From a bacterium (lineage in GTDB: Bacteria > Patescibacteriota > Andersenbacteria > UBA10190 > CAIZMI01), in the NCBI GenBank assembly GCA_030647555.1, contig JAUSJG010000001.1:1-36019 (forward strand): 36,019 bases of DNA. Reading direction: 5' to 3'. Shown piece by piece: positions 4,580-30,859 of this stretch. The notes beneath the pieces are model-generated. The model saw only the letters and a list, made by a program, of their open reading frames with translations, was not told where the DNA came from and did not search any database. The first letter of the stretch is position 1. The number at the start of each line of letters is the position of its first letter. Made by a program: the position numbers and the translations under genes.

Positions 4580-5629
4580 TCAATGTTTCGAAACCCGGTA
4601 TGATTTGTGTGTGATCAGCTTGTCGCGTTCTCTTTGGGCCATTTTCTTGGCCCTTAGTTCGTCTAGGATTTGTTGCAGATCGGCTGGAAGGGGTGCGGAA
4701 AAAGTCTTGATTGTTCCGTCTTCTCTGGTGAAAGAAATTTTTGAAGCGTGCAAGAATTGACGTCGAATTGGGGTGATGTTGCGATCGTGCATCTGTTTGC
4801 CGTATAGGTTGTCTCCTAAAATAGGGAAGCCAATGTGACTAAGGTGAACGCGAATTTGGTGGGTACGGCCGGTAATCGGCTTAACTTCCAGTAATGTGTA
4901 ATGAGAAAACTTTTCGGTGCGCAAGAAAAGTGTAGTGGCGGGCCGCCCTGCAGGGCGAGCCTCGCCCAGATGGGCGGGGCGCCCTCCATTTTCGGGTGCG
5001 ACGGTTCTTCGCATCGGATTACGGGTCGAACGCATAATCGGCTGATTGATTTTTCCGTCCGGTTCACCCATCACGCCGAGGACTAACGCGGTATAAGTTT
5101 TGTGGACATGGCGTAATTGAAATTGTTCTTTCAAGTATTCGTACATTTTTGGCGTACGGGCGACGAGCATCACTCCTGAAGTGTCTTTGTCTAAACGATG
5201 CACAATCCCCGGGCGCAATGGATCTTCACCGATTTCTTTAAGGTCGGGGTAACGAGCGAGTAAAGCGTCACAGAGCGTTGGATGTTCGTTTTTTACGCCT
5301 GCGTGGACAGGGAGGCCGGCTTGTTTATTGATTACCAGTAGCTCCGGTTCTTCGTGGATCACAACCAACGGAATCTCGACATTAGCTTCAACGACGGGCG
5401 GGGGAGCAACGGCGAACGCATCTTCGTCAACACGAATCGTTTGGCCGAAATGGATGGTATTGCCTGGCTTAGTCGTCTTCTTCTCATTCACGGCAATTTT
5501 ACCTTCTTTGATGGCTTTCTGAATCAAACCGCGTGTAACACCCTTCGGAGCGACGCTCAAAAGAAAAATATCAAGGCGTGAGCCCGAAGATTCGGTTGGG
5601 ACAGTGATGTCGGTTGATAGACTTGGCAT
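4580..5629 (-). CDS. RluA-family 23S rRNA pseudouridine synthase
   Basis: Converts specific uridines in rRNA to pseudouridine. Residues 15-75 form an S4-like RNA-binding domain (SGSRLDIFLL...GLIQKAIKEGKIAVNEKK). The catalytic domain follows with GIVHRLDKDTSGVMLVA (141-157); D147 is the nucleophile. The C-terminal part has GRTHQIRVHL and GDNLYG, also family signatures. The layout resembles RluD, but the target uridine cannot be read. Odd point: near residues 214-231 the motif GGRPA is followed by HLGEARPA and a second GRPA before the normal ATTLF. This matches a 36-bp GC-rich in-frame duplication or insertion at 4937-4984. The frame is intact. Confidence 0.9.
   Translation of the reverse strand: MPSLSTDITVPTESSGSRLDIFLLSVAPKGVTRGLIQKAIKEGKIAVNEKKTTKPGNTIHFGQTIRVDEDAFAVAPPPVVEANVEIPLVVIHEEPELLVINKQAGLPVHAGVKNEHPTLCDALLARYPDLKEIGEDPLRPGIVHRLDKDTSGVMLVARTPKMYEYLKEQFQLRHVHKTYTALVLGVMGEPDGKINQPIMRSTRNPMRRTVAPENGGRPAHLGEARPAGRPATTLFLRTEKFSHYTLLEVKPITGRTHQIRVHLSHIGFPILGDNLYGKQMHDRNITPIRRQFLHASKISFTREDGTIKTFSAPLPADLQQILDELRAKKMAQRERDKLITHKSYRVSKH
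4937..4984. repeat. GC-rich palindromic insert inside the pseudouridine synthase gene
   Basis: Direct repeats ggcgggccgccc (4937-4948) and ggcggggcgccc (4973-4984) lie 36 bp apart and bound two hairpins: the perfect palindrome cgccctgcagggcg and the stem cgccc-agat-gggcg. The encoded residues are GRPAHLGEARPAGRPA. A related sequence, in the opposite orientation, lies inside the cyclo-ligase gene at 9981-10074. Confidence 0.7.
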
Positions 5630-9729: not shown

Positions 9730-10278
9730 CTATTTTCGGAGAAATTTATGTATTTTCCACCGGCGTTGATTTTGTTCACCAATTAGCCAATCTGCCGGTT
9801 GATCCCATGGATTGCGAATTAAGGGTGTATGGCTGATTTGTGATTCAGTTGCAATTCCGATGCGGATCCACTCATTGGGTAGTCCTGCGAGCAATCGGTC
9901 ATACCAGCCAAAACCACGACCGTGACGGGTGCCGGTGATATCAAATTTTTGCCCGGGCAAAAATAATAGGGGACAGGCTTCAGGTTGCAGGCCGCCCATC
10001 TGGGCGAGTCGCCCCTTGAGGCGAACCTCGCTTCGAGGAGCGGGCCTCGCCCTGAAGGGCGGGGTACAGGTTGCGAACGCGGCAACAATTTTTTTCGATA
10101 TTTCTTTCGGTTCCATTTTTTGTGTTGGTGGGACGACGAATTTGGGTTTATTTTTGATCAGTTCGAAGTTCGGAATTTCTTCTATGGGGATTTCGTCTGC
10201 CAGAGCAGAATAGGTCACAACAAAGTCTGTCTTTGATAGAAGTTCTTGGTATTGTTGCCAAAGTTTGGGATTCGACAT
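9730..10278 (-). CDS. 5-formyltetrahydrofolate cyclo-ligase, short and carrying a repeat insert
   Basis: Converts 5-formyl-THF to 5,10-methenyl-THF with ATP. The C-terminal signature is clear: LLFLPGQKFDITGTRHGRGFGWYDRLLA, matching the family pattern of a P-G-x-x-F strand followed by G-x-R-x-G-x-G-x-G-x-Y-D-R. The N-terminus is short: the protein begins near the VVTYSALADEIPIEEI strand and lacks roughly 40-50 residues, including the basic helix usually present. Residues about 70-97 are encoded by a GC-rich palindromic insert at 9981-10074 and fit no homologue. The reading frame is intact. The enzyme may be impaired; this is inference. It starts only six bases from the divergent ATP-grasp gene; a TATAAT on the minus strand about 35 bases upstream could drive it. 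Confidence 0.72.
   Translation of the reverse strand: MSNPKLWQQYQELLSKTDFVVTYSALADEIPIEEIPNFELIKNKPKFVVPPTQKMEPKEISKKIVAAFATCTPPFRARPAPRSEVRLKGRLAQMGGLQPEACPLLFLPGQKFDITGTRHGRGFGWYDRLLAGLPNEWIRIGIATESQISHTPLIRNPWDQPADWLIGEQNQRRWKIHKFLRK
9981..10074. repeat. GC-rich palindromic insert inside the cyclo-ligase gene
   Basis: The 8-bp direct repeat caggttgc at 9981-9988 and 10067-10074 bounds hairpins built from cgcccatctgggcg, cctcgcttcgagg and ctcgccctgaagggcggg. The same words, on the opposite strand, make up the insert in the pseudouridine synthase gene at 4937-4984. The direct repeats are 86 bp apart, which is not a multiple of three, so a plain in-frame insertion does not explain it fully. 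Confidence 0.6.
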
Positions 10279-12817: not shown

Positions 12818-12900
12818 GGGTCGGACTGCCAAGCGGTCCGACCCGCATTGGTAGTGGCGTGCGTCCAATTAAGGTCGGACCGCTTGGCAGTCCGACCTTA
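12818..12900. repeat. BIME-like composite palindrome
   Basis: Two hairpins in opposite orientation: the 25-mer at 12819-12843 (ggtcggactgcc...) and its exact reverse complement at 12873-12897. The linker between them is itself bounded by attgg and ccaat. The whole can fold as two small hairpins or one large one. The same plan occurs at 22590-22677. It lies between the 5' side of the metallophosphoesterase gene and the 3' end of ftsH. Confidence 0.8.
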
Positions 12901-22605: not shown

Positions 22606-22677
22606 GGGGTCCGTCCCTCATTGGCCGATGACGTGACGCGACCAATGAAGGTCGGACCGCTCGGCAGTCCGACCTTA
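22590..22677. repeat. BIME-like composite palindrome, second copy
   Basis: Hairpin 1 (gggacggactcc / ggggtccgtccc), a linker bounded by attgg and ccaat, and hairpin 2 (aaggtcggaccg...cagtccgacctt). The plan and linker ends match 12818-12900, although the hairpin sequences have diverged. The repeat includes the stop codon of the preceding gene. Confidence 0.75.
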
Positions 22678-29905: not shown

Positions 29906-29945
29906 AGAAGATTTATTTATTTTATCGGGAGGAGGTGAGTACGAC

Positions 29946-30302
29946 GTGAAAAATCGATTCCAAACAATTATTATTGGCCTCTCTATGCTCTTACCGGGCG
30001 TGGCGATGGCGCAGTTAACGGGTGCTCCGGTCCCACCGGGGACAGCGCGAGGGGATTTATCGTCTGTCATTTTGAACATCATTAATTATGTTCTCGCGGT
30101 TGTGGGTGTCGTCGCACTCGCGTACCTAATTTACGGTGGTTTTCGTTATATCACATCCGGTGGCAATGAAGATTCTATTCAAACTGCGAAAGATGTAATT
30201 ATCAACGCGGTAATCGGTATCGTGGTTATTGGTGTGGCGGCAGCGCTCGTCAATTTCGTAGTTCGCGCAGTGGGTGGCGGAGTGCCAGCTGGCGCAATTT
30301 AA
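29946..30302 (+). CDS. TrbC/VirB2-like pilin (array gene 6), strong ribosome site
   Basis: A 118-residue protein with GTG start. GGGAGGAGGTGAG ends eight bases upstream, an almost complete match to the 16S anti-Shine-Dalgarno; this is the strongest site in the window apart from its twin at 30442. Signal peptide ends VAMAQ; mature part LTGAPVPPGTARGDLS; helix 1 LAVVGVVALAYLIYGGFRYI; turn TSGGNEDSIQTAK; helix 2 IINAVIGIVVIGVAAALVNFVV. It differs from genes 2-5 by F-R-Y and G-N-E in place of F-L-Y and G-D. It is probably a major, highly expressed subunit; that is inference from the leader. Confidence 0.87.
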   Translation: MKNRFQTIIIGLSMLLPGVAMAQLTGAPVPPGTARGDLSSVILNIINYVLAVVGVVALAYLIYGGFRYITSGGNEDSIQTAKDVIINAVIGIVVIGVAAALVNFVVRAVGGGVPAGAI

Positions 30303-30336
30303 GTAAAAATTCCGGAGGAAACGCAAACACAAAAAA

Positions 30337-30365
30337 CAAAGCACGTCCAAACCCGGGCGTGTTTT
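30337..30365 (+). terminator. Terminator after pilin gene 6
   Basis: The stem gcacgtcc / gggcgtgt (one G-T pair) is flanked by As and followed by four Ts. Confidence 0.65.
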
Positions 30366-30391
30366 GATAGTTCAAATGTTTGTCTTTCATG

Positions 30392-30397
30392 TATAAT
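30392..30397 (+). promoter_or_regulatory. -10 box before pilin gene 7
   Basis: TATAAT stands 50 bases before the GTG. No good -35 is found at 16-18 bp. The following leader (30413-30449) is identical to 29917-29953 for 37 bases, including the ribosome site and first codons. Confidence 0.5.
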
Positions 30398-30441
30398 ATA
30401 CGGATAGACTAATTATTTTATCGGGAGGAGGTGAGTACGAC

Positions 30442-30798
30442 GTGAAAAAAATATTTCTAAGAATAATTGTGGGGGCTACTTTGCTGTTGCCAACCGTGGC
30501 ACTGGCTAGTCTTGGGCCCGTAGTTACACCAGATGGAACATCAAAGGGAGATTTGCCATCGATAATTATGAACATCATAAATTATGTTCTCGGGATTGTG
30601 GGAGTTGTGGCACTCGCGTACCTCATTTATGGCGGTTTTCGTTATATCACATCCGGTGGTAATGAGACGGTTGTTGAAGAAGCCAAAAGTATTATCATCA
30701 ATGCAATAATCGGAATTGTTGTTATCGGTGTAGCTGCGGCACTCGTCAATTTTGTAATCGGAGCCGTCGGTGGTGGAACGCCAGCCGGCGCAATTTAA
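30442..30798 (+). CDS. TrbC/VirB2-like pilin (array gene 7), paralogue of gene 6
   Basis: A 118-residue protein with the same length, GTG start and leader as gene 6. The two proteins are near-identical from helix 1 on (VVALAYLIYGGFRYITSGGNE, GIVVIGVAAALVNFV, GGGTPAGAI), but differ in the mature N-terminus (LGPVVTPDGTSKGDLP against LTGAPVPPGTARGDLS). This points to a tandem duplication that included the 5' leader and part of the 3' region, with the exposed N-terminus diverging afterwards. A terminator follows at 30835. Confidence 0.87.
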   Translation: MKKIFLRIIVGATLLLPTVALASLGPVVTPDGTSKGDLPSIIMNIINYVLGIVGVVALAYLIYGGFRYITSGGNETVVEEAKSIIINAIIGIVVIGVAAALVNFVIGAVGGGTPAGAI

Positions 30799-30834
30799 TA
30801 AAAATTTCGGAGGAAAAGAAAAACACAAACAGAG

Positions 30835-30859
30835 GAACACGTCACAAATAGGCGTGTTC
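30835..30859 (+). terminator. Terminator after pilin gene 7
   Basis: The stem gaacacgtc / ggcgtgttc (one G-T pair) around acaaata, followed by a T-rich stretch. The sequence before it (ttcggaggaaa...aacaca) resembles the 3' region of gene 6. Confidence 0.65.

Follow-up and report, generated by a model that had tools for sequence, protein, structure and literature searches.

A 36-bp palindrome, lying in frame in an rluD-type pseudouridine synthase gene of the genome analysed here (G000), is very probably one copy of a short, non-autonomous mobile element that resembles REP and REPIN sequences and tolerates entry into genes. Comparison with G001, the other genome of the genus, shows that the palindrome has moved in the past and that it inserted recently, and in frame, in G000.

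Results

The element within rluD

The features discussed below lie in the window, the whole 36,019-nucleotide stretch of DNA that was analysed, and are collected in Table 1. The original prediction had placed a 36-bp palindromic unit within the pseudouridine synthase, and this is borne out, the element proper being the GC-rich imperfect palindrome CCGCCCTGCAGGGCGAGCCTCGCCCAGATGGGCGGG at 4943-4978. The prediction had also reported that 11 of 12 bases are repeated at the borders of the unit; the 12-mers GGGCGCCCCGCC and GGGCGGCCCGCC do agree at 11 of 12 positions, and this repetition arises because the Gly-Arg-Pro-Ala codons of the host gene resemble the element's own end. The frame is kept, as had been claimed, with a gap of exactly 12 residues in the RluD of the congener.

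Table 1. Positions of the rluD and cyclo-ligase genes in the window and of the element copies that they contain
Feature	Position	Strand	Details
rluD-type 23S rRNA pseudouridine synthase gene, 349 aa	4580..5629	-	Pfam PF00849 (PseudoU_synth_2) and PF01479 (S4)
36-bp element in rluD	4943..4978	+	Covariance-model match 4941-4979, 60.7 bits; absent from congener G001
12 extra codons, protein-level alignment	4946..4981	-	About residues 217-228, GRPAHLGEARPA; gap in G001 and all other relatives
Predicted insert-spanning peptide sequence			...GRPAHLGEARPAGRPA...
5-formyltetrahydrofolate (5-FTHF) cyclo-ligase gene, 182 aa, with double element	9730..10278	-	Pfam PF01812, E 2.5e-10
72-bp copy in cyclo-ligase gene, 24 codons	9992..10063	+	Covariance-model match 9990-10064; boundaries from aligned sites
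Inner 36-bp element in cyclo-ligase copy	10009..10044	+	TCGCCCCTTGAGGCGAACCTCGCTTCGAGGAGCGGG; placed at GAG/CCTC of outer element; read from 72-mer

The encoded protein matches E. coli RluD structures with an E value of 3e-39 and reads RRTVAPENG-GRPAHLGEARPA-GRPATTLF across the insert, where its relatives show a single GRPATTLF-like stretch. In an AlphaFold model the insert falls within a loop that joins two strands and is modelled at low confidence (residues 211-230, pLDDT 61-64). Whether RluD orthologues carry the same residues was the question set beforehand, and they are present in 0 of 17 relatives and absent from E. coli RluD, which rules them out as ordinary residues of the RluD family.

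Copy number and anatomy of the unit

The 15-mer CGCCCATCTGGGCGA occurs in 21 exact copies in the 1.32-Mb genome, as opposed to 0 for a reversed-pattern control. A covariance model built from 17 copies, whose E-values are rough, finds 36 distinct sites with unrelated flanks in G000, a draft genome, and 0 sites in G001. It is hardly credible, given these counts, that the additional RluD residues represent an ordinary loop peculiar to the lineage, or GRPA codons duplicated locally in tandem, and that the likeness to the cyclo-ligase gene reflects chance GC-rich sequence. The border repeat of 11 out of 12 bases would fit such an origin, as would the tendency of GC-rich codons to yield similar words, but the same unit at 36 unrelated places, the empty reversed control and the lack of the loop in every relative all argue against it, and the multi-copy intergenic occurrence of the unit refutes it.

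All copies of the mobile palindrome align one way, as G/CCGCCC-tip-GGGCGAGCCTCGCCC-tip-GGGCGGG (the slash marking the insertion point here and below), with the consensus G/CCGCCC-ATCT-GGGCGAGCCTCGCCC-TGAA-GGGCGGG, in which the two spacers ATCT and TGAA are variable tips. The length is exactly 36 bp in 25 of the 36 copies, the others measuring 34, 38, 42, 60 or 72 bp, with one truncated. The termini CCGCCC and GGGCGG pair as a 6-bp inverted repeat, and two small hairpins are joined by the linker AGCCT (within GAGCCTC). As a single strand the element folds into one long hairpin (-16.6 kcal/mol, z -5.3); in the alternative two-hairpin form, with stems of 5-6 bp, 98% of cells are paired. The second stem carries a compensatory C-G to T-A change in 6 of the 17 copies, with pairing kept, and the stems stay complementary; tips and stem strength vary between copies. 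The base at -1 is G in 35/36 sites and that at -2 a purine in 34/36. The unit can be taken as 36 bp or as 35 bp with one G duplicated. An Rfam search of the window returned four tRNAs only, and no known RNA family for the element.

Empty sites in the congener

The G001 orthologues of RluD, PolA, a Pif1-like helicase, ValS and a membrane glycosyltransferase-like (GT) protein all show a gap of exactly 12 residues (5/5). In polA the empty site is base-exact, G000 reading GAAATGG-(36 bp)-CCCAAACC against GTAATGGTCCAAACC / AATGGTCCAAACC in G001, and the site in the Pif1-like helicase gene of G001 is likewise empty. At the ValS and GT sites an older palindrome stands in G001, and G000 has that same palindrome with the element inside it. 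The insertions are clean and 36 bp long, and the empty sites allow a target duplication of at most 1 bp (G). Whole-gene dN/dS between the two genomes is 0.039 for RluD, 0.051 for PolA, 0.083 for Pif1, 0.062 (partial) for ValS and 0.097 for GT, so that, at 0.04-0.10 over the whole G000-G001 divergence and not only the time after insertion, the five host genes are under purifying selection.

The older palindrome, CCCTCTTTA..TAAAGAGGG, belongs to the coding sequence for the N-terminal region of ValS in G000 and G001 alike (L166 on G000:C15, L162 on G001:C34), and thus a second palindrome family also enters genes.

A double copy in the cyclo-ligase gene

The 72-bp copy of the cyclo-ligase gene consists of two elements, the inner having inserted into the outer, and the whole 72-mer folds into one hairpin (z -4.6). 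Its arm at 9992-10018 is 85% identical to the rluD arm at 4951-4977. The words of the rluD unit had been said to recur in this gene on the opposite strand; the recurrence holds, whereas the strand assignment does not, both genes being on the minus strand with only the matching word inverted. The empty-site comparison is less clear here, since G001 carries a different, palindrome-rich insert at the same place. This congener insert (L057, G001:C21:1350-1580), of about 60 residues, is unrelated to the 24-residue insert of G000 whose position it shares. Judged from the two sequences, this position of the protein is probably an insertion hot spot.

Genomic placement and host repeats

Six of the 36 copies are clearly coding (RluD, cyclo-ligase, PolA, Pif1, ValS and GT) and the others are intergenic or doubtful; a CobO-like N-terminal case (C14:6404) and a DHODH-like case (C30:24717) were left out of the coding count because their true starts may be downstream. 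The intergenic copies that the original prediction had proposed looking for were therefore found, and make up most of the 36, and further coding copies turned up both in G000 and in other phyla. Random landing would put most copies in genes at a typical bacterial coding density, and therefore targeting or selection probably keeps most of them out.

Many copies are nested in other repeats, apparently in one orientation per host repeat, and this fixed orientation could also come from co-duplication of the composites. Hosts include GTCTTTGCGAG..GAAG/CAATCTC, for which there are 24 pattern matches without the element, GTCATTCCTG..CAGG/AATCAG, CCCTCCCTT..AAGGGAGG/..GAGGGTGGG, and short direct repeats such as ACAGGTATCAGG/. 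Perfect 6-bp inverted repeats stand close to 13 of the 36 excised junctions and to 59 of 331 control positions, counts that are suggestive at most of a preference for hairpins and that speak against insertion at hairpins only; nesting within recognisable repeats is clearer from the sequence.

It is improbable that the repeat is kept as a functional RNA or DNA element (a terminator, an mRNA 3' stabiliser or a protein-binding site), with the coding copies as by-products. The mostly intergenic placement and the retained complementarity of the stems are what such a role would predict, but the congener has the element at no site, the tips and the strength of the stems vary, and the copies nest in many kinds of repeats.

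Other repeats were observed alongside the mobile palindrome. A second family in G000, TTTGCGAG-(variable hairpin)-CGAAGCAATCTC, for example at C7:34094-34125 and C8:50070-50101, has 24 pattern matches without the element and stems that vary with complementary changes, and resembles CGTC-type REPs. Within the window, an 81-nt unit with long hairpins is present between genes at 2729-2914 in two copies that are 75% identical; GGTCGGACCGCTTGGCAGTCCGACC-type palindromes, another intergenic repeat family, occur in three copies at 12819-12900 and 22638-22677; and small genes at 29914-30843 form a tandem duplication of two 297-nt copies, 75% identical at a spacing of 496, with shared upstream regions.

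Occurrence in other organisms

A 22-base core (with one free base) was scanned across 84,980 species, among which G000 itself may be left out, and gave four stretches, in a Sungbacteria MAG, a Planctomycetota MAG (two contigs) and a Brocadiaceae MAG. Model matches number 7, 93 and 47 in these three, respectively (a copy matched on both strands may be counted twice), and reach E 1e-4 or better in 11/380 genomes of a phylum sample, G000 included. In-frame copies were found in a NUDIX hydrolase, ProS, SerS and an HTH protein in Sungbacteria; in a PBP transpeptidase, Fmt and a secretion-ATPase-like protein in Planctomycetota; in transketolase and IspF in Brocadiaceae; and in DnaG and a probable sugar dehydrogenase in genome G182, gene names that lack a Pfam or PDB match being read from sequence. 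Copies in SerS, DnaG, PolA and IspF coincide with gaps relative to PDB homologues. Mis-binning of the element-bearing MAGs seems unlikely because two of them hold dozens of copies. Viral contigs scanned with the element pattern gave no match; searching the literature for the core sequence as text likewise gave none, and a search for Patescibacteria with palindromic repeats brought up no title or abstract dealing with such elements.

Discussion

The exact insertion of single units, the fixed neighbouring base, the duplication of no more than 1 bp, the self-nesting and the hairpin-forming unit together suggest transposition in trans, most like the Y1 (HUH) movement of REP and REPIN sequences. 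In the mechanism that we propose, a trans-acting enzyme, most plausibly an HUH/Y1 (RAYT-like) transposase, would work on the hairpin form and place the element directly 3' of G, usually RG, with a target duplication of 1 bp or less. Landing would be mostly intergenic, often within other palindromic repeats or another copy of the element, and copies arriving at tolerant places in proteins would persist in otherwise conserved genes as inserts of 12 residues, because the unit spans 12 codons and is open in most reading frames. We infer that a mobilising enzyme exists, that the inserts are roughly neutral and that the proteins bearing them stay active.

It is possible, if somewhat doubtful, that the element is a RAYT-mobilised REP or REPIN and that its transposase, the product of a Y1 gene of G000 itself (C7:120513, or the IS200-type gene C5:33213), moves a repeat not present at its own flanks. 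RAYT-like and IS200-type genes are present in G000, insertion beside a fixed base without clear duplication is as in IS200/IS605, and the compact inverted double hairpin has folds of one or two hairpins, as proposed for REPINs (PMC3116915). However, a different palindrome, TGCTCCACCTACGAGGTGGAGCA, stands at the flanks of the G000 RAYT and also at those of a RAYT in the element-free congener, and the element has no GTAG tag. Nor is there a strand bias relative to local GC skew (18/36), although an ssDNA mechanism on the lagging strand might have produced one. No element copy was found near the Y1/RAYT genes of G000 and nine other genomes, which mostly have palindromes of their own, and the roughly 1.5 kb around the examined copies contain no Y1 gene, except for an IS200-type gene near a weak look-alike in G008. 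An element flanked by a RAYT or IS200 gene was thus not found at the copies or Y1 genes examined. Genomes G160, G328 and G127 have weak element matches and no Y1 match.

The palindrome TGCTCCACCTACGAGGTGGAGCA itself stands on both sides of RAYT-type Y1 genes in the two genomes (L059, G000:C7 about 120300-121000; L187, G001:C44), and RAYT together with TGCTCCACCTACGAGGTGGAGCA appears to be a REPtron-like unit in the genus.

Palindromes that tolerate coding sequence are known above all from Rickettsia, Wolbachia and certain species rich in REPs. The proposal that something similar to the Rickettsia RPE operates here was right as to behaviour, the element being multi-copy, at both intergenic and coding places, and in frame in genes. 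RPEs are described as about 105-146 bp long and Rickettsia-specific (Ogata et al., reviewed in PMC2229807). Like them, the present element is a multi-copy palindrome found between genes and in frame in conserved protein genes, with five exact 12-residue gaps; unlike them, it is 36 bp long, has another sequence and occurs in a Patescibacteria-like genome, a placement suggested by the small genomes of its relatives and by the Sungbacteria match, as well as in Planctomycetota and Brocadiaceae. It works like RPEs and intragenic REPs, and by size, sequence and taxon it is not an RPE.

Similar reasoning applies to REP sequences. GTAG and CGTC REPs are 20-40 bp palindromes, and the genes that carry intragenic copies include those for helicases, tRNA synthetases, pseudouridine synthases and DNA polymerase I (Di Nocera et al. 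2013, PMC3733652); the same gene classes are hit by the element. CGTC REPs have no dedicated transposase (PMC3733652), a situation like that of the element, and further untagged REP families are expected (PMC3733652). However, across the 36 aligned sites RG precedes the element and mixed bases lie beyond it, with GTAG at neither end, and its copies are not beside a RAYT gene as those of GTAG REPs and REPINs are. CGTC REPs have a CGTC or TGTC/CCTC tag, a stem of 8-9 bp and a CCA-like tail, whereas the element has stems of 5-6 bp and no tag, and neither superfamily shares its two hairpins with a GAGCCTC linker. In REPINs about 70 bp separate the two REP ends (Bertels and Rainey 2011, PMC3116915); the element shares their two hairpins in inverted order, foldable into one long hairpin, but measures 36 bp in all, and the RAYT association was not found. 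With bacterial MITEs (RUP, NEMIS, ERIC) it has in common non-autonomy, terminal inverted repeats and in-frame fusions, but its terminal repeat, CCGCCC/GGGCGG, is 6 bp in place of 15-30 bp, it is far shorter, and its target-site duplication is at most 1 bp. By these sequence characters it belongs neither to the GTAG/CGTC superfamilies nor to the MITEs.

A broader and more tentative reading, which we consider rather unlikely, is that a single family of mobile palindromes, each a whole number of codons in length, is spreading among phyla that have groundwater in common (Patescibacteria, Planctomycetota, Brocadiaceae). A widespread enzyme that has so far been tied to no repeat would move them, and their short inserts would repeatedly decorate informational and cell-wall enzymes.

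The rluD and cyclo-ligase copies in the window are a small part of the element's picture. The pair of genomes from the same genus provides base-exact before and after states in five conserved genes, defining both unit and target, and the same unit is present in several phyla. Therefore the movement of the palindrome, and the effect of 12 foreign residues on a polymerase or a pseudouridine synthase, are directly testable.
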